From Protula sp. h YS-2021 (taxonomy: Eukaryota > Annelida > Polychaeta > Sabellida > Serpulidae): a DNA stretch of 64,000 bases. Below, piece after piece: positions 29,160-62,465 of the stretch (positions are counted from its first letter, which is position 1; each line of letters opens with the position of its first letter). The stretch spans positions 12,379,593 through 12,443,592 of the forward strand of contig OX457027.1 in the NCBI GenBank assembly GCA_949752745.1. Reading direction: 5' to 3'. The position numbers and the translations under genes were made by a program. The notes beneath the pieces are model-generated. The model was not told the DNA's origin. It did not search any database and was given only the letters and a program-made list of their open reading frames with translations.

Positions 29160-29425
29160 CCCGATCATTAACACCTGACAAGCCTTTGGCTTGCAAGAGT
29201 TATATGAATTTGTGCGAGCAGCCGTTCGTCCTTTTTTTCTTCTTGACACTTTTTCCGATTTTTTTGTGTCTTCTTCTTCTCTGACACTATGGGCCCTAGG
29301 GCCATGAAACTTGGGACTTATGAAGAGCTTGATCTGAACAAGTGCATGTTACTTTTTATTTTCGTTTTCGATTTTGTTTTCTTTGCTAAAACACCATGTG
29401 AAAAGAGTGTATTTTTGCAAGTAAA
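29160..29425 (+). repeat. dispersed repeat, copy 1
   Basis: Shares an ordered set of segments (tatatgaatttgtgcg, gccgtt, cttgaca, gggccctaggg, actttttattttcg, gtgaaaagagtgta) with 62235-62465 in the same orientation. This is an unclassified interspersed element. Confidence 0.65.
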
Positions 29426-36100: not shown

Positions 36101-39100
36101 ATCTATGTCCTTTAACGGTCTGTATGTGTGTTTGTTTGTGCGCCTCCTCGCTGTCATCTCTGTCCATGTGGGTCTGTATGTGTGTATGTTTGTTTGTGTG
36201 CCTTCTCACTGCCATATATGTCCTTTAACGGTCTGTATGTATGTTTGCTTGTGCGCCTCCACGCTGTCATCTCTGTCCATGTGGGTCTGTATGTGTGTTT
36301 GTTTGTGCGCCTCCACGCTGTCATCTTTGTCAACTGATGGTCTGTATGTGTGTTTGTTTGTGTGCCTTGTCACTGTCATCTGTGTCCTTTATCGGTCTGT
36401 ATGTATGTTTGTTTGTGCGCCTCCTCGCTGTCATCTCTGTCTTTTGACGGTCTGTATGTGTGTTTGTTTGTGTGCCTTCTCACTGCCATCTATGTCCTTT
36501 AACGGTCTGTATGTGTGCTTGTTTGTGCGCCTCCACGCTGTCATCTCTGCCCATTAACGGTCTGTATGTGTGTTTGTTTGTGCGCCTCCTCGCTGTCATC
36601 TCTGTCCATGTGGGTCTGTATGTGTGTTTGTTTGTGCGCCTCCACGCTGTCATCTTTGTCAACTGATGGTCTGTATGTGTGTTTGTTTGTGCGCCTTCAC
36701 ACGGTCATCTCTGTCCATGTGGGTCTGTATGTGTGTTTGTTTGTGCGCCTTCACGCGGTCATCTCTTTCAATGTGGGTCTGTATGTGTGTTTGTTTGTGC
36801 GCCTCCACGCTGTCATCTCAGTCCATGTGGGTCTGTATGTGTGTTTGTGCGCCTCCACGCTGTCATCTCTGTCCGTGTGGGTCTGTACGTGTGTTTGCTT
36901 GTGCGCCTCCACGCTGTCATCTTTGTCCATGTGAGTCTGTATGTGTGTTTGTTTGTGCGCCTTCTCGCGGTCATCTCTGTCCATGTGGGTCTGTATGTGT
37001 GTTTGTTTGTGCGCCTCCACGCTGTCATCTTTGTCAACTGATGGTCTGTATGTGTGTTTGTTTGTGTGCCTTGTCACTGTCATCTGTGTCCTTTATCGGT
37101 CTGTATGTATGTTTGTTTGTGCGCCTCCTCGCTGTCATCTCTGTCTTTTGACGGTCTGTATGTGTGTTTGTTTGTGTGCCTTCTCACTGCCATCTATGTC
37201 CTTTAACGGTCTGTATGTGTGCTTGTTTGTGCGCCTCCACGCTGTCATCTCTGCCCATTAACGGTCTGTATGTGTGTTTGTTTGTGCGCCTCCTCGCTGT
37301 CATCTCTGTCCATGTGGGTCTGTATGTGTGTATGTTTATTTGTGTGCCTTCTCACTGCCATTTATGTTCTTTAACGGTCTGTATGTATGTTTGTTTGTGC
37401 GCCTCCACGCTGTCATCTCTGTCCATGTGGGTCTGTATGTGTGTTTGTTTGTGCGCCTCCACGCTGTCATCTTTGTCAACTGATGGTCTGTATGTGTGTT
37501 TGTTTGTGCGCCTTCACACGGTCATCTCTGTCCATGTGGGTCTGTATGTGTGTTTGTTTGTGCGCCTTCACGCGGTCATCTCTTTCAATGTGGGTCTGTA
37601 TGTGTGTTTGTTTGTGCGCCTCCACGCTGTCATCTCAGTCCATGTGGGTCTGTATGTGTGTTTGTGCGCCTCCACGCTGTCATCTCTGTCCGTGTGGGTC
37701 TGTACGTGTGTTTGCTTGTGCGCCTCCACGCTGTCATCTTTGTCCATGTGAGTCTGTATGTGTGTTTGTTTGTGCGCCTTCACGCGGTCATCTCTGTCCA
37801 TGTGGGTCTGTATGTGTGTTTCTTTGTGCGCCTCCTCGCTGTCATCTCTGTCCACAGACGGTCTGTATGTGTGTTTGTTTGTGTGCCTTGTCACTGTCAT
37901 CTGTGTCCTTTAATGGTCTGTATGTATGTTTGTTTGTGCGCCTCCTCGCTGTCATCTCTGTCCTTTGGCGGTCTGTATGTGTGTTTGTTTGTGCGCCTTC
38001 ACGCGGTCATCTCTGTCCATGTGGGTCTGTATATGTGTTTGTTTGTGCCCCTCCACGCTGTCATCTCTGTCCATGTGGGTCTCTATGTGTGTTTGTTCGT
38101 GCAGCTCCTCGCTGTCATCTCTGTCCACTGATGGTCTGTGTGTGTGTTTGTTTGTGCGCCTCCACGCTGTCATCTTTGTCCATGTGGGTCTGTAGGTGTG
38201 TTTGTTTGTGCCCCTCCACGCTGTCATCTCTGTCCATGTGGGTCTGTATGTGTGTTTGTTTGTGCGCCTCCTCGCTCTTAGCTATGTCCTTGACGGTCTG
38301 TATGTGCCGTATTACTCCATTACAATAAAATCTTTCCAAATGTAACCAAAAGGGACACCTTAAAGGGGACACCTCAAAGGGGACACCTCAAAGGGGACAC
38401 CTCAAAGGGGACACACCATTGTCGGAAATTTTGCTGGCAAAGAACGTGTAAAGAGATTTCAAGTGGGTAAAAAAATCAGAAACAACGGTCAAACTCAGAA
38501 AATGCACTTTGATTCATAAATAGATCTACAGATGTATATGTACACTTGAAGCTTGGTTTGGGCTCAGATGAAAGGTCTGCTGCCGCGCCTGTATACTGCT
38601 TGTTTTAGACAAAAGTGTAAAAAAAGAAAAAAAACCCGGAAACGTACCAATACTAGCACCGTGATCCCACCATCCAATCGAGCACTCCTGAAACTTGAGA
38701 TCTGATTCATTTTTGTGCCATTCTACCTGTCAAATTAAACTTTGTCGTATATAAATGTGAAACAGCGTGAAAGTACGGGTGTATCCACCTGTCAAATTAA
38801 ACAGCATGGTATATAAATGCAAAACAATGAAAGCATGGGTGTATCCCCCCCTCCGGCCCCGTCCCCGCCCCGTCCCCGCCCCTTCCCCCGCCTTCGACCC
38901 CCCCCCCCCCCCCCCGCAATTCCACCTTTCAAATTAAACAGCATTGTATATAAATGTGAAATAACTTGAAAGTATGCGTGTACCCCCCCCCCCCCCCGTC
39001 GTCACCGCCCCTCCCCCTGTGGCAGTCTTACTTGGTTAGCGTACGCCATGTACCTAGTTCGGGGGTTCATACGGCGCCCATACATGATGGAAATACACCT

Positions 39101-42100: not shown

Positions 42101-45100
42101 AAGGGGTTTCTTGCGCACGGCAACCTACTTGTATGTAAGTAGGTTGACTTTGTTTCCATTTGCCTGTATTCTTTATAGCTGGCAGATGTATGATGTATCA
42201 TAATTTCGATTAGGAGGGGAGGGTCAGGGGTGGTGTAGGGGGTTCAGGGAGGGTTAGGTGGTGGTGTACGGGGTGATGTAGAGGGTGTAGGGGTGGTGCA
42301 GGGAGGTGTAGGGGTGGTGTAGGGGAAGGGGTGGTGTAGGGGGTGTAGGGGTGGTGCAGGGAGGTGTAGGGGGGTACTGTAGGGGAGGGGTGGTGTAGGA
42401 GTGTATGGGTGATGTAGGGGGGGGGGGCATGGGAAATGGAGGGACGGGGAGGGGAAGACGAGGGGCTGGCAGGAATATTTTATGTTCCCACCTCCATTTT
42501 TTGATGAGCAGATGGGAAGGGAGAGGGGGAGGAGGTCAGGAGGGGGAGGGGAGTTGGGAGTATGTTGTGGGACATGCTCTCACCGCCATGTTTTGATGAG
42601 CAGAGCGCCGTACGACAGCACAAATCCCAGATGTTGTGACCACACGCGGAACCCACACAGAATGGCATTTACTTTGGGAAAATCAACAAAAATCTGGAAA
42701 CGATGTTTCACATTACAAACACCAGACCATCCGTTAATTTGAAATATTTGCCATTTTGTAATAACATTAATTTAAAGAGATTTAATTTATCTTAATCACA
42801 CAAAAATTTACGAGATCTAATTTTATTATAAAGGAAACCTTTATTAACTGTTTGCTATTGGGTCAATTAATAAAATCTGATAATTACTTATTCCTACTGG
42901 CACTCCCGACTTCAGCATGCTGCTTTGTTGCGTTCAACAGAAACAGGTTGTTTTCCTTTTTAAAGCTCTATCGTTGTTATTATTGTTTGACCCACAAGAT
43001 GGCGCCGTGATTGCCGGAAAACGGTTCGATGTTGAAAGGACGTGGCACCAGGAAAAGCATAGTAGGGCACAAATAAGCCCCGGGAGGGGGGGGGGGCACT
43101 TGGTATCTAATGTGTTACAATGCTTGTCAAAAAAAAAAAAACGCGGAGAAAGGGGGGGGGGTAAATTTGGGGACAGACGTGGTCCGTCAAATGCCAATTT
43201 CGTTAAAAAGGGGGGTGCATTTAGTATTCCGCGTTTCCCACAAAATGGGGGCTCTTTCGGAACTGTGGTGTGCGTTTAGTTATAAAGGGGGTATTATTCG
43301 AAACAAAAGGACTTCGTGTTTATGGATCGTTTTAAAAGGTCATGGGCACCGGCTGGTACGTGTTGTTACGTGAGTGCCCCTCCCCCCTGGGATATAAACA
43401 TTGTAAAGTGAATTGTAAAGCGAACATGTTGTATAACTTTATTACAAATGTGCAATACTGTGCAGTATTGTGCAGTATAGAAGTACTTACTCGTATGTAC
43501 ATGAGTCCCGCTCCTGCGTTCATAATGTGAAGAAATATTGGACTCGCTGACTTAATAACCTTGGACAGAATGGACATTAAAAAGAAATAACATCATTTAA
43601 TAAAACATGTCTGTATAATCTGAACGTGCCTTGGATCCCAGCAGCCGCGCTTAGAATGGAACTGAGACATGGTGATTTTCCAACATAGGTTTTTTTTGTT
43701 AAAAAATTATCGTATTCCAGAGAGTATTATTTTTGAATTCTGAAATGAACCGTCGTGAATACTTTATTGAGCTAAATTCATGAATTATGTACTTGACGTT
43801 GAAATCTACTTGACGAAGGGAATGGATGACGAAAGTACCTAAGTATTTGACAAAAATACCTTTTTCTGCCTGAACAAGAAAACGCTGACAGAGGCAGTCC
43901 CCACCAAAGAAACCAGCGCGATGTTCAGGAACAACAGTATTGAGCTGATAAAGACGTTCTTTTCATACAAGCAAGGCGAATCATCGACACAGGAGTCACA
44001 GCCTTCGGCGCATTTCAGGCACGTGAAGGCATACTCTTTGCCGTGAAATCCGCTATTATCGCCACCAGTAGTGTTCCCTATAGTGACCCCGGCGTAGAAC
44101 GCTTCCAGGACTTTGCCACTGAAGGCTCGAGTTGTATCTTCCAAATAAGGAAAGTAGAAACCGGGCACACACTCGCACGAGTACGAACCTCTCACAAATC
44201 CTTCCCCTTTGATGGGCACGCACTGAAATATCGAAATAACATCCAGAACCCCCTGTCTACCCCCTACTCAACTTTCTGAAGATTAAAACTACAACTTGCA
44301 ATAACTGCATCTATAGATTCTTACTCACTTTTCAATATTTTGCATCAGAAACCCTAATAGTTACTCGGCATAACTACATCAATTTTTCCTCTATTTGTGC
44401 ACGTTTAATTTATCTGCAAAAATTGGAGATTAAGAAAAATATTTATTTGAAAATGAAAGCAATATTTGACAATAATTTCTGAATAAATTATATGTGTATG
44501 GGTGACTATATTTGTGAAGCGACACTGGTACCCGTACCCTAGTGGTGGGCTGGCAATTGTGAGAACCACGAAACACATCCACAGTTGAAACGGCGTTTGT
44601 GACGTCATCTTCCAAGTCACATTGATTAATATCAATATCCGTAAGCTCAATATCGATCGTTCCAATACCTCTGTTGGCGTGTGAAAACATGGCATATACA
44701 GTGTTGGAAAGAGAGGACTCTTTTTGTGTATAAAATGACAACATCTAATCTCATTCTATAAAATCTTCATATTTTATTGTCTTTCAAATTTAAATTATAA
44801 TGTTGTGCATATATTTACAAAACATTTTGTCTGATTCTCGTGAACTGCTAGCAAAATGTAACTTTATAATGTTTTAGAGGGCAAAAGCAGTATCTTTGAA
44901 GCTTAACTTTAATTAATTTATTTTATTTAATTTGAGAGTTAAATTCAATTGTTGCCCAAGCTCAGTACGCCGTCAAATTACCTAAAGATTGGTTCTTGAT
45001 TTTGATTGACACCAAAAATGGGTGCTGAGTATGTGACCATCCACACATCCCCGCCTCCGCAGTCATAATACGGGGATGTCCAGTGACCGTCGGACAGCTG

Positions 45101-46785: not shown

Positions 46786-47539
46786 ACCCTACATCGACAT
46801 GGCTTACTTTATAACCCAAACTAAAAAGAATTGTTTTCGGATGCAAAGGCGAAGAAAACAAGTAAAGAGGGTGTTGTCCGACAGAGGAAGTGCGAAAACA
46901 ATTACGTCTGTTCTGATTTCATTTTCGCGTGTGTTTTTCTAAAAATATTACAACGTCTTTGTTCCTCGTATAATGGGTATGAGTGCACTTGGAGACATGT
47001 AAACTGAGCTTCCTTCAACAACACTGCTCTCGCTATCGACATTTCAACGCACATTAAATTTACCACGGATTTTCACAGATGTTGCTTCAATTTTCAATCT
47101 TTTCCCTGGCAGATTCCCACATTATATTAACAGTTTAAGGTTTGAGCTATGAGAAGATTTCATACATGTTTCAAGGCAACGCCCAAGTAGAAAGTGTTAA
47201 GCTGCGAGTCACCACTGGGCTTCTGTATTATTTTGTTCCAAGAAACAAAATGCAGTTGCAATGCCATTGTGCTATTCTTAAAATAAAGTGCACGGTAAAA
47301 GTTCTTCTGTAGAATTGAGGTTTATTTCCAATACAGCCACGGGTAGTGTGAAGAATTGTGCATGCTGAGAAAATCCCCCACAAAATGGTTTGCTCACACC
47401 ATAAGCCTTCATTTTTCTCAAAGGTCCTGAGTTGATTAACAGTATTTTTGTGTGGTTTTGAAGACATGTAGATGACGGCCGAATCAAGGCGTCTACTTCA
47501 CAATGAATATACACTTGAGTATCAGAGCATATATTGTGT
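46786..47539. other. intergenic or 5' intron of the receptor gene
   Basis: No exon was recognised on either strand. Upstream receptor exons would be expected in this direction. Confidence 0.45.
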
Positions 47540-47783
47540 GAATGGCAGTAAATTACAACCAGTCACATGTCATGAATCTCAATAAATAACAACCAGTCAC
47601 ACATCACAAATAGCAGTAAATCACAACCAGTCACATGCCATGAATGGCAGTACATTCACAACTAGTCACATGTCATGAATGGCAGGAAATCACAATAGTT
47701 ACACGTCATGAATGACAGTAAATCGCAATAAGTCATACGTCATGAATGGCAGTACATCACAGCCAGTCATATATCATGGATGG
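47540..47783 (+). repeat. 34 bp minisatellite, left part
   Basis: About seven copies of cagtaaatcacaaccagt followed by cacatgtcatgaatgg. The same unit in the same orientation resumes at 55240, on the other side of the palindromic element, so this is one array split by an insertion. Confidence 0.9.
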
Positions 47784-47799
47784 CAGTAGGGTGAAAAGG

Positions 47800-47930
47800 A
47801 CAGTTCTGCGTCACTTGACAGTTCTGCGCCACTTGACAGTTCTGCGCCACTTGACAGTTCTGCGCCACTTGACAGTTCTGCGCCACTTGACAGTTCTGCG
47901 CCACTTGACAGTTCTGCGCCACTTGATGAC
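47800..47930. repeat. 18 bp array, left arm end
   Basis: Seven copies of cagttctgcgccacttga. The mirrored array is at 55093-55224. Confidence 0.95.
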
Positions 47931-48198
47931 GTCATACTGTCTGGAAGTGACGTCATACTGTCTGGAAGTGACGTCATCATGTCTGGACCGGAAGTGTTGT
48001 CTGGACCGGAAGTGTTGTCTGGACCGGAAGTGTTGTCTGGAGCGGAAGTCATGATAAGCGTTAGGATAAGCGCGGCCATCCATGACGTGATAATGACGTC
48101 ATGATGACGTCATACTGTCTGGAAGTGCTGTCATACTGTCTGGACCGGAAGTGTTGTATGGACCGGAAGTGTTGTCTGGACCGGAAGTGACGTCATAG
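47925..48198. repeat. CRE and ETS motif cluster, left arm
   Basis: Repeats of gtctggaccggaagtgtt and gtctggaagtgacgtcat. ACCGGAAGTG is an exact ETS-family consensus and TGACGTCA an exact CREB/ATF consensus. The right-arm counterpart is 54825-55100. Confidence 0.9.
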
Positions 48199-48217
48199 GC
48201 GTTGTCATGGTAACGAA

Positions 48218-48862
48218 TTGAAACTTTGTAAACAAAAGTGAACTTTGTAAACAAACTGTGTAAACAAACTTTATAAACAAAATTTGTAAATAAACTTTAT
48301 AAACAAAATTTGTAAACAAACTTTGTAAACAAACTTTGTAAATAACATTTGTAAACAAAATTTGTAAACAAACTTTGGTTATTTACATAATTGAAACTCA
48401 TTGAAACTTTGTAGACAAACTTTGTAAACAAACTTTGTAAACAAACTTTGTAAACACAATTTGTAAACAAACTTTGTAAACAAAATTTGTAAACAAACTT
48501 TGTAAGCAAAATTTGTAAACAAACTTTGGTTATTTGCATAATTGAAACTTTGTAAACAAACTTTGTAAACAAACTTTGTAAACAAACTTTGGTTATTTGC
48601 ATAATTGAAACTCATTGAAACTTTGTAAACAAACTTTGTAAACACAATTTGTAAACAAACTTTATAAACAAACTTTGTAAACAAACTTTGTAAACAAACT
48701 TTGGTTATTTGCATAATTGAAACTCATTGAAACTTTGTAAACAAACTTTGTAAACACAATTTGTAAACAAACTTTATAAACAAACTTTGTAAACAAACTT
48801 TGTAAACAAACTTTGGTTATTTGCATAATTGAAACTCATTGAAACTTTGTAAACAAACTTTT
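48218..48862. repeat. gtaaacaa array, left arm
   Basis: About 45 copies of a 13-15 bp unit, caaactttgtaaa, interrupted by a longer unit with ggttatttgcataattg. Each GTAAACAA is the complement of TTGTTTAC, the forkhead (FOXO) consensus. The right-arm counterpart is 54272-54808. Confidence 0.9.
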
Positions 48863-48995
48863 TTTTTCCCCTCACACACTCTCTCTCTCCACACACACAC
48901 ACACCACGACTGAGCGTTTCATTTCGTAAGTAGCATAGGCATTTCAACCTTCTGATGGCAACTTTTTTTTTTCCCCTCACACACTCTCTCTCTCT

Positions 48996-49030
<35 letters not shown>

Positions 49031-49230
49031 ACGACTGAGCATTTCATTTCATAAGCCGCGTAGGTATTTTAACCTTCTGATGGCAACTTTTTCCCCCACA
49101 CTCTCTCTCCACACACACCAACACCACGACTGAGCGTTTCATAAGCCGTATAGGTATTTTAACCTTCTGATGGTAACTTTTTCCCCCCACACTCTCATGC
49201 ATACATACCAACACCATGATAAAATGTTTT
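48863..49230. repeat. CT/CA-rich ~110 bp repeats, left arm
   Basis: Four copies containing cctcacacactctctctc, caccacgactgagcgttt and aaccttctgatggcaact, with (ca)n runs of different length. The right-arm counterpart is 53940-54272. Confidence 0.85.
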
Positions 49231-49449
49231 GCTTATGTTGCTCTTTATACTCCATTATTTGTTTGTTTGTTTTTGTTTTTTTTTGTTTGAAATGCAGTGT
49301 TTACTTAGAGAAAAAATGGCGTCCTGCAATCTGCAATCATCAGCAGCAGCATTTCGTCATCAGTGTAATCAGACTGCGTCATCTATAGCCAGCGTAATCA
49401 GACTGCGTAATCAGACTTCGTCATAAACAACGTAGACAGCGGTGTCTGG

Positions 49450-49865
49450 CTTTATTGTTTTTCTGAGGCAGCAGTGTCTAGCTGCTTGGAGTTGCAGTGT
49501 GACCCTAAGTGTTATACTTAACCGACTTGTCTGAAAATTTCACTGTTTGATTCAGTTTTATATCTAGTTTTCACATAGTCATGGACTGGTTGCGTAGCTA
49601 GCTGTATGCATCATGAATTCACCTTAAAAATGACAAGTTAAAAGTGGAATAACTTTTGTTATGATTGACCGATTTACATGAAACTTTCACTGTTTAATTC
49701 AGTTTTATATCTAGTTTTAACATTAAGTGGTTATAGGCTATTTGCGCAGCTGGCTGTGTGCATATTTACCACCATTTTAATTTTGTAAAAAGTGAAAAAT
49801 TGTGATAACTTTCGCTATAGTTGACGGATTTGCATGAAAATTTCACCGTTTGGATTCAGTTTACA
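49450..49865. repeat. ~150 bp degenerate repeats, left arm
   Basis: Three diverged copies with gaccgatttacatgaaa, tttcactgtttaattcag and ttttatatctagtttt. Mirrored at 53277-53620. Confidence 0.75.
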
Positions 49866-49954
49866 GTAGTTTGCATAGGTGGGTTGTTGGAATGGCGCGC
49901 GCCCACCATTTAAACATGTGTTTGAATAAGTTTTACGTCAAACTATTGTTCAAC

Positions 49955-50290
49955 AAGTTGTTTAGCAATTGTACAACAATTGTTCAACAAGCTGTTGTTG
50001 AACATGTTCAACATGTTGTTGAACATGTTCAACATGTTCAACATGTTCAACATGTTCAACAACATATTCAACAAGTTGAACATGTTCAACATGTTCAACA
50101 TGTTCAACATGTTCAACAACATGTTCAACATGTTCAACAACATGTTCAACAAGTTGAACATGTTCAACATGTTCAACATGTTCAACAACATGTTCAACAT
50201 GTTCAACATGTTCAACAACATGTTCAACAAGTTGAACATGTTCAACATGTTCAACAACATGCTGTTTAACAAATTGTTCAACAAGTTGTA
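49955..50290. repeat. gttgaacat array downstream of left gene
   Basis: Dozens of 9-12 bp units (gttcaacat, gttgaacat). They often combine as GAACATGTTC, which matches the p53-family half-site RRRCWWGYYY. The right-arm counterpart is 52850-53190. Confidence 0.92.
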
Positions 50291-50401
50291 GTTCAAGCAA
50301 AGAAAAAACAAGACATATGTTGAATAGGTTTATTAATACATTTAAATACACTTAAATACACTTAAATATATACAGCTTAAATCTATAACAATATTATAAC
50401 A

Positions 50402-50426
50402 TTTATTGATTTACAAAGTCTTTATT
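50402..50426 (-). terminator. polyadenylation signals of left zinc-finger gene
   Basis: Two AATAAA hexamers on the minus strand, 22-48 bases after the stop codon. Identical signals follow the right copy. Confidence 0.7.
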
Positions 50427-50447
50427 ATAATGTTTAGTCAAATAAGT

Positions 50448-51185
50448 CTATTTTTCTTCATCTGCTTCACTCTGTTCACTGGCATCCATATCACTTTCTT
50501 CGTCACTGCTTTCATCTTCCTCCTCCACATCTAGAAGCTCTTCAAAGAATGCATCGTTTCTTCTTATAGCCGCCTTTAGTGCCTTTGAATACTCGTAATG
50601 TTTTTCATCAACAAAGTAATTGAAGTCTTCTAAAATGGTTTCATAATGTTCGTTTTGTTGTAGACGTTGGGCATATTTGAATAGTCTCATAAACAGTTGT
50701 TTAAGTCGACGCTTATAAATGGGTCGAAAGTCATCACTTGCTATTTCACGCGCATCTTCAAGCCCTTGTTCTTCATATTCTGAAACCTTTTCTTGAAATT
50801 TCTTATCATATTCATCGTAGACTTCTTGAACCATATCATACCAAACAGAGTCTGTTTCTGACTCACTTTCAGAGTCTGTTTCTGACTCACTTTCAGAGCT
50901 GCCGTCATCATCACCCTCAACACGATGTTCCATATGTTTGAACAAAGCTTCTTGACTGTTGTATAATGCACCACATTCTGTACAAGCATGTGCATTCTTT
51001 TCAGTCATGTTGACGCTTTGACTTTCCATAGAAGACTCATCTAAAGTTTCAGTGATAGGTGGTTTTACAGGGTTTTCCACATCTATCTCCAATTCTTCTT
51101 CTTCTGAAGTGTGAGCATTCTTTAAGTGCCTTTTAAGACTTTGTGGCCAATTGTAAGATTTCAAACAAATGTTGCATTTATACAT
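50448..51185 (-). CDS. zinc-finger protein, left-arm copy
   Basis: 245 residues, single exon. Finger 1 is C4-C7-H20-H25 (YKCNICLKSYNWPQSLKRH). Finger 2 is C68-C71-H84 followed by HMEHR. Here residue 88 is Arg, while the right copy has Cys. An acidic Ser/Glu/Asp linker (GSSESESETDSE) at about 91-113 is followed by a charged helical region (114-215) and an acidic tail ending ADEEK. The C-terminal part resembles uncharacterised zinc-finger proteins that I recall as multicopy in cnidarian and other marine genomes. This is a recollection, not a search. Probably nuclear and DNA-binding. The function is unknown. Confidence 0.85.
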   Translation of the reverse strand: MYKCNICLKSYNWPQSLKRHLKNAHTSEEEELEIDVENPVKPPITETLDESSMESQSVNMTEKNAHACTECGALYNSQEALFKHMEHRVEGDDDGSSESESETDSESESETDSVWYDMVQEVYDEYDKKFQEKVSEYEEQGLEDAREIASDDFRPIYKRRLKQLFMRLFKYAQRLQQNEHYETILEDFNYFVDEKHYEYSKALKAAIRRNDAFFEELLDVEEEDESSDEESDMDASEQSEADEEK

Positions 51186-51239
51186 CCTTTCGGTTCAACA
51201 TGCACTTTTCAAATGATGAAAAAGCCTTTAAACATAGCC

Positions 51240-51246
51240 TTATATA
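51240..51246 (-). promoter_or_regulatory. TATA box of left zinc-finger gene
   Basis: TATATAA on the minus strand, 55 bases before the ATG at 51185, in an arrangement identical to the right copy. Confidence 0.7.
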
Positions 51247-51325
51247 CAACTTGTTGAACAACATGTTGAACATGTTCAACATGTTGTTGAACATGTTGTT
51301 GAACATGTTGTTGAACATGTTGTCT
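51246..51325. repeat. gttgaacat array upstream of left gene
   Basis: Seven or so units of ttgttgaacatg, directly upstream of the TATA box. Mirrored at 51805-51884. Confidence 0.9.
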
Positions 51326-51341
51326 ATGCCTAGGGGAGTTT

Positions 51342-51419
51342 AACGTCATGACGTCATTATGACGTCATCATTATGACGTCATTATTACGTCATCATTATG
51401 ACGTCATAATGACGTCATT
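51342..51419. promoter_or_regulatory. cluster of CRE sites, left arm
   Basis: About six TGACGTCA or ACGTCAT sites at ~12 bp spacing (gacgtcatcattatgacg), about 100-180 bases upstream of the TATA box. TGACGTCA is the CREB/ATF consensus. Use in vivo is inferred. Confidence 0.6.
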
Positions 51420-51446
51420 GGAACAGGCGCATGCTTTATCAAAAAC

Positions 51447-51456
51447 TGACTCAGCA
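51447..51456. promoter_or_regulatory. NF-E2/AP-1-type site, left arm
   Basis: TGACTCAGCA is an exact match to the NF-E2/Nrf antioxidant-response type of AP-1 site. The mirrored copy is at 51674-51683. Confidence 0.45.
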
Positions 51457-51552
51457 GAATTTATTGCTGTTTGATATGGATGAAATGCATGTCTCACTCT
51501 TCCTTTTATGCTACTTAGATGTAATCAAAATATGGTGTGTAACTCGTCAAAA

Positions 51553-51577
51553 ATGCCAAACTTGTAAAAATTGCTGA
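51553..51577. other. central spacer of the palindrome
   Basis: The only unpaired part between the arms (tgccaaacttgtaaaaattg and a few bases). Short enough for the strands to fold back. Confidence 0.85.
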
Positions 51578-51673
51578 TTTTGACGAGTTCCACACCATAT
51601 TTTGATTACATCTAAGTAGCATAAAAGGAAGAGTGAGACATGCATTTCATCCATATCAAACAGCAATAAATTC

Positions 51674-51683
51674 TGCTGAGTCA
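51674..51683. promoter_or_regulatory. NF-E2/AP-1-type site, right arm
   Basis: TGCTGAGTCA, the mirror image of the site at 51447. Confidence 0.45.
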
Positions 51684-51710
51684 GTTTTTGATAAAGCATG
51701 CGCCTGTTCC

Positions 51711-51788
51711 AATGACGTCATTATGACGTCATAATGATGACGTAATAATGACGTCATAATGATGACGTCATAATGACGTCATGACGTT
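51711..51788. promoter_or_regulatory. cluster of CRE sites, right arm
   Basis: The mirror copy of the 51342-51419 cluster, about 100-175 bases upstream of the right TATA box. Confidence 0.6.
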
Positions 51789-51804
51789 AAACTCCCCTAG
51801 GCAT

Positions 51805-51884
51805 AGACAACATGTTCAACAACATGTTCAACAACATGTTCAACAACATGTTGAACATGTTCAACATGTTGTTCAACAAGTTGT
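51805..51884. repeat. gttgaacat array upstream of right gene
   Basis: The mirror copy of 51246-51325. It contains gttgaacatgttcaac. Confidence 0.9.
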
Positions 51885-51890
51885 ATATAA
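51884..51890 (+). promoter_or_regulatory. TATA box of right zinc-finger gene
   Basis: TATATAA, 55 bases before the ATG at 51945, leaving room for a 5' leader of about 30 bases. Confidence 0.7.
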
Positions 51891-51944
51891 GGCTATGTTT
51901 AAAGGCTTTTTCATCATTTGAAAAGTGCATGTTGAACCGAAAGG

Positions 51945-52682
51945 ATGTATAAATGCAACATTTGTTTGAAATCTTACAATTGGCCACAAAGTCTTAAAAG
52001 GCACTTAAAGAATGCTCACACTTCAGAAGAAGAAGAATTGGAGATAGATGTGGAAAACCCTGTAAAACCACCTATCACTGAAACTTTAGATGAGTCTTCT
52101 ATGGAAAGTCAAAGCGTCAACATGACTGAAAAGAATGCACATGCTTGTACAGAATGTGGTGCATTATACAACAGTCAAGAAGCTTTGTTCAAACATATGG
52201 AACATTGTGTTGAGGGTGATGATGACGGCAGCTCTGAAAGTGAGTCAGAAACAGACTCTGAAAGTGAGTCAGAAACAGACTCTGTTTGGTATGATATGGT
52301 TCAAGAAGTCTACGATGAATATGATAAGAAATTTCAAGAAAAGGTTTCAGAATATGAAGAACAAGGGCTTGAAGATGCGCGTGAAATAGCAAGTGATGAC
52401 TTTCGACCCATTTATAAGCGTCGACTTAAACAACTGTTTATGAGACTATTCAAATATGCCCAACGTCTACAACAAAACGAACATTATGAAACCATTTTAG
52501 AAGACTTCAATTACTTTGTTGATGAAAAACATTACGAGTATTCAAAGGCACTAAAGGCGGCTATAAGAAGAAACGATGCATTCTTTGAAGAGCTTCTAGA
52601 TGTGGAGGAGGAAGATGAAAGCAGTGACGAAGAAAGTGATATGGATGCCAGTGAACAGAGTGAAGCAGATGAAGAAAAATAG
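51945..52682 (+). CDS. zinc-finger protein, right-arm copy
   Basis: 245 residues, identical to the left copy except Cys88 for Arg88. Finger 2 here can be read as C68-C71-H84-C88, a C2HC finger. With H87 alone the last spacing would be an unusual two residues. The ATG is the first after the TATA box, and two AATAAA signals follow the stop. Both copies remain open and almost identical, so either both are functional or gene conversion keeps the arms alike. The function is not known. Confidence 0.87.
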   Translation: MYKCNICLKSYNWPQSLKRHLKNAHTSEEEELEIDVENPVKPPITETLDESSMESQSVNMTEKNAHACTECGALYNSQEALFKHMEHCVEGDDDGSSESESETDSESESETDSVWYDMVQEVYDEYDKKFQEKVSEYEEQGLEDAREIASDDFRPIYKRRLKQLFMRLFKYAQRLQQNEHYETILEDFNYFVDEKHYEYSKALKAAIRRNDAFFEELLDVEEEDESSDEESDMDASEQSEADEEK

Positions 52683-52703
52683 ACTTATTTGACTAAACAT
52701 TAT

Positions 52704-52728
52704 AATAAAGACTTTGTAAATCAATAAA
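52704..52728 (+). terminator. polyadenylation signals of right zinc-finger gene
   Basis: AATAAA at 52704 and 52723, 22-46 bases after the stop. Confidence 0.7.
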
Positions 52729-52849
52729 TGTTATAATATTGTTATAGATTTAAGCTGTATATATTTAAGTGTATTTAAGTGTATTTAAATGTATTAATAA
52801 ACCTATTCAACATATGTCTTGTTTTTTCTTTGCTTGAACTACAACTTGT

Positions 52850-53190
52850 TGAACAATTTGTTAAACAGCATGTTGTTGAACATGTTGAACATGTTCAACT
52901 TGTTGAACATGTTGTTGAACATGTTGAATATGTTGAACATGTTGAACATGTTGTTGAACATGTTGAACATGTTGAACATGTTCAACTTGTTGAACATGTT
53001 GTTGAACATGTTGAACATGTTGAACATGTTGTTGAACATGTTGAACATGTTGAACATGTTGAACATGTTCAACTTGTTGAACATGTTGTTGAACATGTTG
53101 AACATGTTGAACATGTTCAACAACATGTTGAACATGTTCAACAACAGCTTGTTGAACAATTGTTGTACAATTGCTAAACAACTTGTTGAA
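52850..53190. repeat. gttgaacat array downstream of right gene
   Basis: The mirror of 49955-50290 with a slightly different number of units (for example an added gaatatgttgaacatgtt). Confidence 0.92.
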
Positions 53191-53276
53191 CAATAGTTTG
53201 ACGTAAAACTTATTCAAACACATGTTTAAATGGTGGGCGCGCGCCATTCCAACAACCCACCTATGCAAACTACTGT

Positions 53277-53620
53277 AAACTGAATCCAAACGGTGAAATT
53301 TTCATGCAAATCCGTCAACTATAGCGAAAGTTATCACAATTTTTCACTTTTTACAAAATTAAAATGGTGGTAAATATGCACACAGCCAGCTGCGCAAATA
53401 GCCTATAACCACTTAATGTTAAAACTAGATATAAAACTGAATTAAACAGTGAAAGTTTCATGTAAATCGGTCAATCATAACAAAAGTTATTCCACTTTTA
53501 ACTTGTCATTTTTAAGGTGAATTCATGATGCATACAGCTAGCTACGCAACCAGTCCATGACTATGTGAAAACTAGATATAAAACTGAATCAAACAGTGAA
53601 ATTTTCAGACAAGTCGGTTA
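53277..53620. repeat. ~150 bp degenerate repeats, right arm
   Basis: The mirror of 49450-49865. Confidence 0.75.
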
Positions 53621-53939
53621 AGTATAACACTTTGGGTCACACTGCAACTCCAAGCAGCTAGACACTGCTGCCTCAGAAAAACAATAAAGCCAGACACCGC
53701 TGTCTACGTTGTTTATGACGAAGTCTGATTACGCAGTCTGATTACGCTGGCTATAGATGACGCAGTCTGATTACACTGATGACGAAATGCTGCTGCTGAT
53801 GATTGCAGATTGCAGGACGCCATTTTTTCTCTAAGTAAACTCTGCATTTCAAACAAAAAAAAACAAACAAACAAATAATGGAGTATAAAGAGCAACATAA
53901 GCAAAACATTTTATCATGGTGTTGGTATGTATGCATGAG

Positions 53940-54272
53940 AGTGTGGGGGGGGGGGGAAAGTTACCATCAGAAGGTTAAAATACCTATACGGCTTATGAAA
54001 CGATCAGTCGTGGTGTTGGTGTGTGTGGAGAGAGAGTGTGGGGGAAAAAGTTGCCATCAGAAGGTTAAAATACCTATGCGGCTTATGAAATGAAATGCTC
54101 AGTCGTGGTGTGTGTGTGTGTGTGTTGTGTGGAGAGAGAGAGAGTGTGTGAGGGGAAAAAAAAAAAGTTGCCATCAGAAGGTTGAAATACCTATGCTACT
54201 TACGAAATGAAACGCTCAGTCGTGGTGTGTGTGTGTGTGGAGAGAGAGAGTGTGTGAGGGGAAAAAAAAAAA
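53940..54272. repeat. CT/CA-rich repeats, right arm
   Basis: The mirror of 48863-49230. The (gt)n runs are shorter and the g-run at 53943-53956 longer than in the left arm. Confidence 0.85.
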
Positions 54273-54808
54273 GTTTGTTTACAAAGTTTCAATGAGTTTC
54301 AATTATGCAAATAACCAAAGTTTGTTTACAAAGTTTGTTTACAAAGTTTGTTTATAAAGTTTGTTTACAAATTGTGTTTACAAAGTTTCTCTACAAAGTT
54401 TGTTTACAAAGTTTGTTTACAAAGTTTGTTAACAAATTGTGTTTACAAAGTTTGTTTACAAAGTTTGTTTACAAAGTTTCAATTATGCAAATAACCAAAG
54501 TTTGTTTACAAATTTTGTTTACAAAGTTTGTTTACAAATTTTGTTTACAAAGTTTGTTTACAAATTGTGTTTACAAAGTTTGTTTACAAAGTTTGTTACA
54601 AAGTTTGTCTACAAAGTTTCAATGAGTTTCAATTATGTAAATAACCAAAGTTTGTTTACAAATTTTGTTTACAAATGTTGTTTACAAAGTTTGTTTACAA
54701 AGTTTGTTTACAAATTTTGTTTATAAAGTTTATTTACAAATTTTGTTTATAAAGTTTGTTTACACAGTTTGTTTACAAAGTTCACTTTTGTTTACAAAGT
54801 TTCAATTC
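54272..54808. repeat. ttgtttac array, right arm
   Basis: The mirror of the left forkhead-like array, about 100 bp shorter because one block of units present on the left is missing. Confidence 0.9.
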
Positions 54809-54824
54809 GTTACCATGACAACGC

Positions 54825-55100
54825 CTATGACGTCACTTCCGGTCCAGACAACACTTCCGGTCCAGACAACACTTCCGGTCCAGACAGTATGACAGCACTT
54901 CCAGACAGTATGACGTCATCATGACGTCATTATCACGTCATGGATGGCCGCGCTTATCCTAACGCTTATCATGACTTCCGCTCCAGACAACACTTCCGGT
55001 CCAGACAACACTTCCGGTCCAGACAACACTTCCGGTCCAGACATGATGACGTCACTTCCAGACAGTATGACGTCACTTCCAGACAGTATGACGTCATCAA
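54825..55100. repeat. CRE and ETS motif cluster, right arm
   Basis: The mirror of 47925-48198 (cacttccggtccagacaa units and gtatgacgtcatc units). Confidence 0.9.
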
Positions 55101-55224
55101 GTGGCGCAGAACTGTCAAGTGGCGCAGAACTGTCAAGTGGCGCAGAACTGTCAAGTGGCGCAGAACTGTCAAGTGGCGCAGAACTGTCAAGTGGCGCAGA
55201 ACTGTCAAGTGGCGCAGAACTGTC
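55093..55224. repeat. 18 bp array, right arm end
   Basis: Seven copies of tcaagtggcgcagaactg, ending just before the right terminus. Confidence 0.95.
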
Positions 55225-55239
55225 CTTTTCACCCTACTG

Positions 55240-55545
55240 ATGGCAGTAAATCACAACCAGTCACACGTCTTAAATGGCAGTAAATCGCAACCAGTCACAC
55301 GTCTTGAATAGCATTAAAATCACAGCCAGTCACATGCCATGACTGACAGTAAATCGCAACCAGTCACATGTCATGAATGGCAGCGAATCACAACTAGTCA
55401 CATGTCATGAATGGCAGTGAATCACAACCAGTCACAGCCATGAATGGCAGTAAATCACAACTAGTCATACGTCTTGAATAGTAGTAAATCACAGCCAGTC
55501 ACATGTCATGAATGGTAGTAAATCACAACCAGTCGCACGCCATTA
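55240..55545 (+). repeat. 34 bp minisatellite, right part
   Basis: About nine copies of the unit seen at 47540-47783, in the same and not the inverted orientation. Confidence 0.9.
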
Positions 55546-57311: not shown

Positions 57312-57595
57312 CCAAAGAATAATAGATGATGAAAAAATAATGTCGGTAAATAGATACCATAAAAAATATAACCCATTTAAGAACTTAGTTGAACAAAGTA
57401 GAAAAGTACTCGCGAACAGCAGTTAAACAGTGGATAAGAGAGGTGGCAGAAGGAGAATAAATAAAATTGTGTACTTTAATGTGTACTGGCGTTCCGTTTA
57501 CGTTATATGTATGTCGTTGTCCTGTAATCAAGAAATAAAAAAAATTAGTATTAGCGGAGCGAAGGGGATATTATCCAGGTTCAACAATATGAACT

Positions 57596-59730
57596 GAAAC
57601 GAGTAGTCTATGTGATTTAATTTAGGCGACCCAACTCTGGGAGAAACCATATAAAACAAACCCGGCTCGAAGACTAATCAGGAACCATATGACACAAAAC
57701 TGAGGGTTGGCATCGAACGTTCTCTTCCAGCATTCTCTCCCAACGCTCTCTCCCAGCGTTCTCTCCCAGCTTCTACCAAAATTAATGGGATTTTATCCGA
57801 AGGGAATACTTTCCGGGGTGTTTTTCAATAGAGTGTAACCCACGAAACTACTGTACAAGATGGTAACAATAGATCACAAAAATAATCCACTGTGACCTAC
57901 ATCTGGTAGCAGCACAGTGAGTCTGAAAAAGTAATCGCCCCATAAAGACATTTTTTCCGTTTCTTTCTTTTGTTGTAATTTAAGCCCATTTTAAAATACA
58001 GAATCAAAACCTCCTCTGTAGAACAACTAAAAAGCACCACCTCGTGTAACATAAGCCTAAGACGACTGGAGTGCCTCTGAAACTTTCGCATTTAAAATCT
58101 ATCAGTAATACCGAGAGCATTCTGCTTTCCATGTATGTCGTTGTCCTGTAATTAATTGGTTTAAAACGTGTCTCCTTCTCTGAAAGCCTCAGCATAGCTG
58201 GTTACAGCTGGGAGAGGATGCGGGGAGACAACGCTGGGAGAGAACGTTGGAAGAGAACGCTGGGATAGATCGCTGGGAGAGAACGTTAGGAGAGACCGCT
58301 GGAAGAGGACGCTGGGAGAAAAAGCTGGGAGAGAACGCTGGAAGAGAATGTTAGGAGAGAACGCTTGGAGAGAACGTTGGGAGAGACCGCTGGGAGAGAA
58401 CGCTGGGAGAGAACATTGGGAGAGAACGCTGGGAGAGAACGCTGGGAGAGGACGCTGGGAGAGAACGCTTGGAGATAACGTTGGGAGAGAACGCTGGGAG
58501 AGAACGCTGGGAGAGAATGTTATGAGAGACCGTTGGGAGGGAAAGTTGGGAGAGAACGCTGGGAGAGAATGTTGGGAGAGAATGTTGGGAGAGAACGTTG
58601 AGAGAGAACGCTGGGAGAGAACGTTGGGAGAGAACGCTGGGAGAGAACGCTGGGAGAGAACGTTAGCAGAGAACGCTGGGAGAGAAGGTTGGAAGAGAAC
58701 GTTGGGAAAGAACGTTGGGAGAGAACGTTAAGAGATAACGCTGAGAGAGAACGTTGGGAGAGAACGCTGGGAGAAAACGTTGGGAGAGAACGCTGGGAGA
58801 GAACGTTGGGAGGGAAAATTGGGAGAGAACGCTGGGAGAGAATGTTGGGAGAGAATGTTGGGAGAGAACGTTAAGAGAGAACGCTGGGAGAGAACGTTGG
58901 GAGAGAACGCTGGGAGAGAACGCTGGGAGAGAACGTTAGGAGAGAACGCTGGGGGAGAAGGTTGGAAGAGAACGTTGGGAAAGAACGTTGGAAGAGAACG
59001 TTAAGAGATAACGCTGAGAGAGAACGTTGGGAGAGAACGCTGGGAGAGACCGTTGGGAGAGAACGCTGGGAGAGAACGTTGGGAGATAACGCTGGCAGAG
59101 AACATTGGGAGAGAACGTTGGCAGAGAACGCTGGGAGAGACCGCTGGGAGAGAACGTTGGGAGAGAACGCTGGGAGAGAACGTTGGGAGAGAACGCTGGG
59201 AGAGAACGCTGGGAAAGAATGCTGGGAGAGAACGCTTGGAGAGAACTTTGGGAGAAAACGCTGGGAGAGAACGCTGGGAGAGAACGTTGGGAGAGAACAC
59301 TAGGAGAGAACGCTGGGAGAGAACGTTGGGAGAGAATGCTGGGAGAGAAGGTTGGGAGAGAACGCTGGTAGAGAACGTTAGGAGAGACCGCTGGGAGAAA
59401 ACGTTGGGAGAGAACGTTGGGAGAGAACGCTGGGAGAGAACGTTGGGAGAGAACGCTGGGAGAGAACGCTGGGAGAGAACGTTGGGAGAGAACGCTGGGA
59501 GAGAAGGTTGGGAGAGAACGCTGGGAGATAACGTTAAGAGAGACCGCTGGGAGAGAACGTTGGGAAAGAACGTTGGGAGAGAACGCTGGGAGAGAACAAT
59601 AGTATACGGGTCTGTTCTCAGTTGTGTGTCATAATGTGTGCCCCTGATTAGTCTTCGAACCGGGTTTGTTTTTGTATGGTTTCTCCCAGAGTTCGGTCAC
59701 CTAAATTAAATGAGATAGACTACTCGTTTC
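57596..59730. mobile_element. foldback element built on a 13 bp repeat
   Basis: The outer arms gaaacgagtagtcta through aagactaatcagg (57596-57680) recur inverted at about 59650-59730. Inside the left arm are four inverted copies of the 13 bp unit. Inside the right arm the same unit forms a 1.4 kb array. Between them (57771-58200) is unique AT-rich DNA. No coding sequence. Structure and size fit a foldback DNA element with one expanded arm. Confidence 0.8.
58205..59600. repeat. 13 bp satellite
   Basis: About 105 copies of gagagaacgctgg and gagagaacgttgg with occasional gaccgct and gaatgtt. The repetitive ERWERTLGENAGR frames are by-products of the unit. Confidence 0.95.
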
Positions 59731-60790
59731 CGTTTTTGGACACAAGTGATAATGAAGTTTGATTCAGTCACTTTTGTGATACGAACAGATTATTATGTGA
59801 CCCAAAAATTAAAAAATGTAGTTTATCTGTAAGTTATAACGCCTTTTTGTTCGCATTTGCAGTCCAAGACGCGATGCTTGTGTTGAATAGCTCTTCTCAC
59901 CTTTCACCTTTATGCAGCACTGACGAGTGTCAATCTGCATATAAATACATGCCTCATTATTTTGATTGGCTGTTCTAAAAAGACGCTTATGACCAATGTT
60001 CTTCTGGTGTTTCTGAAATCTTAATTCGCACTCAGAACTGGTCAAGTATCCGTGTTAATCATGACAGTCCCCATTAGTGTCCCAATCAGCATTTTGTTTG
60101 GTCAACTGACTTAATTGTTTTTATGACAAAAAAAAAAAGAACGTTTTGATTTTAATTAGATCAGTGAATTAGTTTTATATGATTGCACTTTGATGCTAAT
60201 TTCTTAAGGTTAACTGTGTTACTTTAATTCGCATTTTTAATGGTCGCTGGCCGAAAAGATAGACCGAAACGTCATCTATGGCAATCAAAATAAAGTCACA
60301 TAAGATTTCTCCTGGGTTAGGGCTGGATTCTTATATTTATCTATTTTGAAGATTTGCGATTAATTTGAGCTATGTCAGGCATCACAGTGACGTCATTGTT
60401 CGCCAGGATGTTTCACCTTTAAACCTGATGAAAGCCCTTTTTCCGACAAACCGACATTGATTCTTCTCTGTTTAGAATTCCCAGTCAGTAAGTACTTAAA
60501 AGCAGTGCACCGTCTGATTCTTCTTTCCGTATCCCGACATATAAGTATCTTAAATTAGCTCTGAAAGCATATCAAGTTTCACTAGAATCCCTTTCACCAA
60601 AGCTAAACAAAACCATAGCATATACACCAGTGCTGCACAAAAAATGATAAAATGTCTTATTTCTTTTCGTACTTATGCCAATTATTTTGCAGGACATGAT
60701 CTAAAAATAGATTTCGCAATACCCCCGTCTGGAACGCTGAAGGGTATTTATCTTACGAGGGCTGTTCTCTCATTGGTCAATATGTTGGAC
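59731..60790. other. intergenic, nothing recognised
   Basis: AT-rich sequence. No exon or repeat family was recognised. Confidence 0.45.
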
Positions 60791-61668: not shown

Positions 61669-62234
61669 GGAGATCATTAGTCGGGGATAAAACACATGTC
61701 ATATATGCCATTTCTCTCAGTATGCTGCGCAACACATGCTTTAGATTAGATTCCATACTTAAGGATATCTATAGTATTATGTTGTTCAAGGTAATGTTTC
61801 TTCTATACGTTCAAACTCTGTTGTTCTTAATTCCAGTCAAAGTAACAAAGTTTGAAATAGCAAAATAAAACGATGTTACATCGTTTTCTTCAAAGTTTAA
61901 AAGCATAACGAAGGTCATCCCTTTACTTAATTTATTTTTGGTCAGTCTCGCCCTTTTTACCCTGCAGCAACCATGCGGAGTTATCTGACCTCACGCCCTG
62001 GGTCAGTCGCCCCTCTCCTTAGTTTTCTGGACATGTCCGGATAAACTCTTGCCTGGTAATTATTTGAAAACCATTTTAAAATCTGTTGTCGTTTTGTCGG
62101 TGGGAAGTTGACAGGTTGTATTTCAAATGGCCTGAGAATTTGTAGCTGGATGGGTGGGGGATTGTCTTATATCGTCCCCACCGACTCCCCTTTCCATTCA
62201 ATATTCTTGTTAAGCGTTAATTGATTTGATGATA

Positions 62235-62465
62235 TCTTTAACACTTGACAAGGGTTTGGCCTTCAAGGGTTATATGAATTTGTGCGGGCTGCCGTTGGTA
62301 TCTTTTTTTCTTGACAGTGATCGGATTTCCTGTGTCATCTCCTCCACTGGCACTACGGGCCCTAGGGTCACGAAACGTGAGACTTAGGTAGAACTTGATA
62401 TGAACGTGTGCATGACACTTTTTATTTTCGCCTTCAGTTTCGCAATGTGAAAAGAGTGTATCTTA
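62235..62465 (+). repeat. dispersed repeat, copy 2
   Basis: The direct-orientation relative of 29160-29425. Confidence 0.65.

Follow-up and report, generated by a model that had tools for sequence, protein, structure and literature searches.

A palindromic element with a zinc-finger gene in each arm, whose ends hint at a possible reduced and mirror-duplicated relative of Maverick/adintovirus elements instead of an ordinary foldback

Maverick-type elements are thought to replicate as linear DNA with terminal proteins, by strand displacement from the ends. When linear DNA replicates in this way, it can fold back and serve as its own template, and the resulting molecule is mirror symmetric around a short loop, with identical ends. 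Adenoviruses give rise to symmetric defective genomes, which are protein-primed linear DNAs with one end mirrored and are extrachromosomal, without integration (none appeared among the literature matches listed), and adeno-associated virus (AAV) replicates by means of hairpin ends and Rep rather than terminal-protein priming. Long inverted arms also occur in foldback transposons, one of which, mentioned in the passages cited here only as a sea urchin foldback, is presumably TU. Here, we describe a palindromic element of 7.5 kb that carries an intact zinc-finger gene in each arm and lies in a 64,000-nucleotide stretch of Protula sp. h YS-2021 contig OX457027.1 (the whole stretch being referred to as the window), and we compare it with each of these systems.

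As described in the cited passages, vertebrate Mavericks end most often in (AGT)2//(ACT)2, with (AG)3//(CT)3 or (AC)3A//T(GT)3 as other termini; intact ones have 6-bp target-site duplications, and in most vertebrate Mavericks, accessory regions flank the core genes (PMC8097293). Some adintoviruses, as well as an adomavirus from a clam dataset, are reported to have zinc-finger transcriptional regulators (preprint PMC11071296), and AAV makes snapback subgenomes that contain a regulatory region and to which regulation of the parent virus is ascribed (PMC8235507). Among foldbacks, Tetris has duplications of 8 to 10 bp and is represented, in the part of the report concerned, by three complete copies without conserved open reading frames (ORFs) (PMC4079207), and Galileo has duplications of 7 bp (PMC3573991). 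There are Galileo copies that consist of two inverted repeats only, and the tandem repeats of foldback arms can hold transposase binding sites (PMC4079207, PMC3573991).

The element occupies positions 47785 to 55238 (7,454 bp) and consists of two inverted arms around a 25-nt loop (Table 1). A sequence-only reading had placed a 7.5-kb palindrome here, and alignment bears out its arms and its spacer, with coordinates that were correct to within 1 base. The arms are 99.5% identical in a global alignment (47785-51552 versus 51578-55238), with 17 substitutions (10 of them transitions) in 3,636 aligned bases and 12 gap events totaling 157 bases, of which 10 fall inside listed tandem arrays and 2 in T-rich runs. 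The outer inverted block (47784-48427 and 54596-55239) is 100% complementary after rounding and shows 3 substitutions in gapped alignment. The longest ungapped inverted block adjoins the loop (50117-51552 and 51578-53013); the inner stretch, 50117-51552, has 2 substitutions (at 50924 and 51540) as well as two 9-base gaps in an array at its outer edge. Folding of the central 291 nt gives -159.7 kcal/mol, compared with a mean of -28.5 for shuffled sequences (z = -34), and a chance origin of the inverted arms is thereby excluded. Inverted 20-mer matches number 13,548 within the element (both orders counted) versus 391 in all remaining pairings of the window (each pair counted once), and elsewhere in the window the left arm has no long copy, only short matches of at most 125 bp that are mainly of low complexity. 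The locus thus shows both the long, internally repetitive inverted arms of a foldback and the symmetric arms around a short loop of a snap-back product, and it is near certain that the palindrome is present in the assembly as given.

The element interrupts a host satellite with a 34-bp unit. Units in the left flank start at 47539, 47573, 47607, 47641, 47676, 47709, 47743, and 47777 and those in the right flank at 55237 and 55271, with a spacing of 33 to 35 elsewhere in the array. Since the offset between units on the two sides (55237 - 47777 = 7,460) equals the element length of 7,454 plus 6, the array continues in register when the element is removed together with a single 6-bp repeat. A search for symmetric ends, requiring at least 25 matching terminal bases and duplications of 4 to 12 bp, returned two solutions: 47785-55238, with AGTAGG...CCTACT ends and a 6-bp duplication (GATGGC), and 47784-55239, with CAGTAGG ends and a 4-bp duplication (ATGG). 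GATGGC begins with G at both junctions, but all 15 of the other array units found have A there, which favors the 6-bp duplication without proving it; under the 4-bp solution, the right-hand G belongs to the element. No symmetric ends give a duplication above 6 bp, such as the 7 to 10 bp of foldbacks. For Ginger elements, 4-bp duplications and TGTNR ends are described (cited passages of PMC2836005), but TGTNR ends are not seen here. A 9- to 10-bp duplication as in Mutator-like elements was rejected: it can be drawn as GATGGCAGTA (10 bp) on both sides, but TACT then separates the right inverted repeat from the duplication, leaving the ends asymmetric. With both arms stopping at the same terminal sequence, and with flanks that form one array in one orientation and register around a short duplication, the element was very likely inserted into the satellite as one unit.

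Each arm holds a complete gene of 245 codons, a compact and uninterrupted ORF that is intact in both copies. The sequence-only reading had given these genes TATA boxes and polyadenylation signals of their own and outward transcription, all of which is borne out by the ORF strands and by the signals around the right copy, where TATATAA lies 61 bases 5' of the ATG and AATAAA recurs 22, 41, and 114 bases 3' of the stop. The encoded protein has two C2H2 fingers (residues 2 to 25 and 65 to 85) and an acidic tail, in which D or E makes up 19 of the final 40 symbols, counting the stop; the region after the fingers is predicted, at low confidence, to be mostly helical (AlphaFold model from the single sequence, mean predicted local distance difference test score of 48.8). 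A single base separates the two gene copies, CGT or TGT at codon 88 (position 50924 and its right-arm counterpart), so that the residue just after the second finger is Arg in the left copy and Cys in the right. Both copies match the C2H2 finger profile (E = 2.4e-9 and 1.3e-8), and because the CGT copy scores higher (37.4 versus 35.1 bits), TGT may be the derived state, a change that would fit CpG decay. The G+C content by codon position (0.54, 0.29, and 0.29) suggests the compositional bias of a real gene. A PDB sequence search returned weak zinc-finger matches only (best E = 0.017), NCBIfam yielded 0 families, Rfam yielded 0 matches at the gathering threshold, and a scan of bacterial and archaeal genomes gave 13 pattern matches, none of them a relative by tblastn.

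Much of the rest of each arm is repetitive. From the end inward, it runs through 18-bp and 21-bp minisatellites with TGACGTCA, a long AACTTTGTAAACA array, and CA-rich 90-bp repeats, followed by a repeat-poor stretch, the TGTTCAACA array, the gene, its promoter, the TGTTGAACA array, and a second TGACGTCA cluster; iterated motifs flank the gene on both sides and also occur near the termini. Motif clusters upstream of the genes had been proposed, and counts on the plus strand of the left arm agree, with 11 sites of TGACGTCA, 32 of TGTTCAACA or TGTTGAACA, and 27 of TTGTAAACA. Outside the element (55,900 bases, both strands), the count is 12 for TGACGTCA, which is self-complementary and thus present at 6 sites, and 0 for both TGTTCAACA/TGTTGAACA and TTGTAAACA. 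A further motif, CCGGAAGT/ACTTCCGG, is not specific to the element, with 6 occurrences in the left arm and 66 elsewhere (33 sites).

Sixteen ORFs of at least 100 codons overlap the element, and the 14 besides the gene appear by eye to be repeat derived (no profile scan was made of these). Outside the element there are 195 ORFs of at least 58 codons, of which 148 were listed and 102 tested against Pfam at an E value of 0.001; ORFs with at least 35% tandem repeat or containing a run of N were excluded beforehand. The only match at this threshold is a GPR158/179 domain, in two ORFs, and no transposase was matched, so that the absence of a transposase proposed earlier holds for what was scanned. 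Since neither a protein-primed DNA polymerase nor a retrovirus-like integrase is evident among the ORFs examined, the element is at most a non-autonomous derivative if it belongs with Maverick/Polinton/adintovirus elements.

Because its ends and the kind of gene it carries resemble those of Maverick/Polinton/adintovirus elements, we tentatively regard the element as an integrated, helper-dependent derivative of an element of this type, one end of which was duplicated by snap-back together with a regulator gene; we consider such an origin likelier than any single rival, yet short of an even chance. The AGTAGG//CCTACT ends match 5 of the 6 bases of the (AGT)2 of vertebrate Mavericks, the position of accessory genes near the ends is shared, and a 6-bp duplication, one of the two solutions here, would agree with theirs (cited passages of PMC8097293). 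Zinc-finger regulators occur in some adintoviruses according to the relevant part of preprint PMC11071296, a likeness in the kind of gene. Distinct from Mavericks and Polintons, the element has inverted repeats that span its entire 7.45 kb and a gene that is present twice, and the scanned ORFs revealed no polymerase, integrase, ATPase, protease, or capsid gene.

Under a snap-back origin, a displaced strand would have turned back on itself near 51.56 kb and been extended along its own sequence. A single end of the genome, comprising the terminus, the subterminal repeats, and an accessory gene for a zinc-finger regulator, would in this way have come to form the two ends of a 7.45-kb molecule. 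This molecule would have retained two origins and two regulator copies and lost the polymerase, integrase, and capsid genes; its replication would depend on helper proteins, and its insertion, with duplication of 6 bp, on a helper integrase. Possible targets of the zinc-finger protein are the iterated motifs next to its promoter and near the termini, through which it may regulate either its own gene or the helper. This single snap-back step would account at once for the absence of core genes, the symmetry, the loop, and the matching ends. AAV 5' snapback subgenomes are comparable in that they are self-complementary from one genome end, contain a regulatory region, and have a similar proposed fold-back (cited passages of PMC8235507), but they are packaged, whereas the element is integrated in a chromosome. 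A snap-back origin would also imply a parent that has the same end in a single copy, and no parent Maverick-type element was seen in the window among the outside ORFs tested against Pfam.

Several observations weigh against a Maverick-type derivative. The terminal motif is inexact, at 5 of 6 bases, and AGTAGG is not rare, with 18 occurrences in the window (both strands). The 4-bp ATGG solution also fits, beside the 6-bp GATGGC, a match of 6 to 14 bp arises in 3.7% of 58,725 random breakpoint pairs drawn from the two flanking arrays, and the AGTA with which the element starts also follows the target site in the host unit, a coincidence without explanation. The dimensions are atypical: intact vertebrate Mavericks have shorter inverted repeats (46 to 1,447 bp, versus arms of 3.7 kb here) and are longer overall (12,723 to 24,620 bp, versus 7.45 kb), as given in the cited passages (PMC8097293). 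Pfam detected no polymerase, integrase, or capsid gene in the 102 outside ORFs, and none is apparent among those of the element. Viral contigs, when scanned with the zinc-finger protein, the terminal 21-mer, and two repeat patterns, gave no match. Finally, one copy of the element underlies the family assignment.

If a helper exists, the element would represent an integrated satellite of a Maverick-type element, or a defective derivative of one, in an animal genome, and a regulator gene would be all that it carries. It would then also tie the strand-displacement replication of Maverick-type elements to a chromosomal footprint and would suggest a second route to foldback elements, by one-step mirror duplication as opposed to slow growth of the arms. 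In the Polinton/Maverick literature on palindromes, snap-back, foldback, or defective interference, no such element is announced in the titles and abstract openings of the matches listed. The sequence-only reading had proposed a candidate undescribed class of elements; that it is a mobile or inserted element is supported, but a new class is not established, and the ends and gene type point, on a single copy, to a Maverick/Polinton/adintovirus derivative.

The main rival, unlikely but the nearest contender, is a non-autonomous foldback DNA transposon (of the Mutator, P/Galileo, hAT, or another cut-and-paste superfamily) that captured a zinc-finger gene in its very long inverted arms and is moved by a transposase, encoded elsewhere, that recognizes the subterminal repeats. 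Repeat-rich long inverted arms are the hallmark of Tetris and Galileo in the cited passages (PMC4079207, PMC3573991), arms-only elements and subterminal tandem repeats are shared with these and the sea urchin foldback, the arm repeats could bind a transposase as described for foldback arms, and non-autonomy is consistent with the lack of a transposase match in the 102 scanned ORFs. The published duplications, however, are longer (8 to 10 bp in Tetris and 7 bp in Galileo) than the 4 or 6 bp available here, and the complete Tetris copies described contain no conserved ORFs, whereas this element has an intact gene in both arms.

A snap-back derivative of Maverick-type elements might also have become a lineage in its own right. 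It is rather doubtful, though conceivable, that the element belongs to a self-standing line of palindromic satellites of animal adintoviruses/Mavericks, chromosomal elements consisting of nothing but one helper end in two copies and maintained for their pair of origins and for the doubled dosage of a helper-controlling regulator.

Improbable, in our estimation, is the capture of a linear palindromic molecule from another DNA virus or plasmid (e.g., an adomavirus- or parvovirus-like snap-back subgenome), end-joined at a break in the satellite without an integrase. The gene is compact and virus-like, a zinc-finger regulator is also reported for the clam-dataset adomavirus (in the part of preprint PMC11071296 concerned), and CAGTA is common to the host unit and the element end at the left junction, as microhomology joining could leave; yet the two ends are preserved to an identical base, and an in-register empty site with a duplication would be unusual for end joining. 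The present evidence is an assembly, not reads, which leaves room for an artefact, either an unsplit hairpin read or a larger element whose unique middle was collapsed. Missed adapters are known to yield palindromes. In the case of a hairpin read left unsplit, the flank too would be a mirror image; here, however, both flanks keep their direction and register, which rules out that simple form, while the arms differ by the substitutions and gaps enumerated above; a collapsed unique middle is possible, and an artefact of either kind we judge quite improbable. Duplication of a host zinc-finger gene in place and in inverted orientation, which would account for an intact gene in both near-identical arms, is the least credible origin and is rejected on flank register, since a local inverted duplication is not expected to end in the same terminus on both outer sides within an in-register satellite array.

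Table 1. Positions of the element, its parts, and its flanks in the window
Feature	Position	Strand	Basis or remark
Left flank, host 34-bp satellite array interrupted by element	47539..47784	+	Tandem-repeat list, unit positions
Left GATGGC, putative 6-bp target-site duplication	47779..47784	.	Alternative: 4-bp ATGG, element one base longer per end
Left arm	47785..51552	+	3,768 bp
Left terminus AGTAGGGTGAAAAG	47785..47798	+	Sequence
Subterminal minisatellites: 18-bp GACAGTTCTGCGCCACTT x7, 21-bp with TGACGTCA x3, 18-bp TGTCTGGACCGGAAGTGT	47799..48205	+	
AACTTTGTAAACA array, 13-bp/112-bp repeats	48224..48861	+	Tandem-repeat list, motif counts
TGTTCAACA array, downstream of left gene	49947..50283	+	Tandem-repeat list, motif counts
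Zinc-finger gene, left copy, 245 codons, outward transcription	50448..51185	-	ORF list, profile search
TATA box, left gene	51240..51246	-	Mirror of TATATAA at 51884
TGTTGAACA array, upstream of left gene	51252..51317	-	Tandem-repeat list, motif counts
Promoter-side TGACGTCA cluster, left arm, 5 exact sites	51349..51417	.	Motif counts
Central 25-nt loop	51553..51577	.	Inverted-repeat search, folding
Right arm, inverted copy of left arm	51578..55238	-	3,661 bp
TATA box (TATATAA), right gene	51884..51890	+	Sequence
Zinc-finger gene, right copy, 245 codons, outward transcription	51945..52682	+	ORF list, profile search
Three AATAAA signals downstream of right gene	52704..52801	+	At 52704, 52723, and 52796
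Right GATGGC, putative 6-bp target-site duplication	55239..55244	.	Junction comparison
Right flank, 34-bp satellite array, strand and register as left flank	55239..55543	+	Unit positions

The surroundings of the element are themselves rich in repeats. Tandem-repeat masking covers 19,158 of the 64,000 bases (about 30% of the window), and minisatellites are very dense between 1123 and 61198 (155 tandem-repeat rows, overlapping ones included). Examples are a 55-bp unit repeated 57 times at 35168-38306, a 24-bp unit repeated 52 times at 15483-16734, a 32-bp unit repeated 41 times at 4217-5534, and a 26/39-bp unit at 58207-59597, and many of the minisatellites in the window translate as long repetitive ORFs. 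One of the ORFs with a match to the GPR158/179 extracellular domain (43839-44267, minus strand, E = 1.1e-6) is probably an exon of a host receptor gene; the GPR158/179 family is not known outside animals, and by this match the window resembles animal nuclear DNA. A coiled-coil-like ORF of 217 amino acids (18318-18971, plus strand), with a subthreshold match to CCDC92 (E = 0.0084), may be a host exon as well. A 200-bp interspersed repeat is found at 29164-29364 and 62234-62430 (79% identical), and an inverted repeat of about 190 bp, 82% identical, is located at 57592-57770 and 59546-59734, beside and overlapping the end of the 58207-59597 minisatellite.

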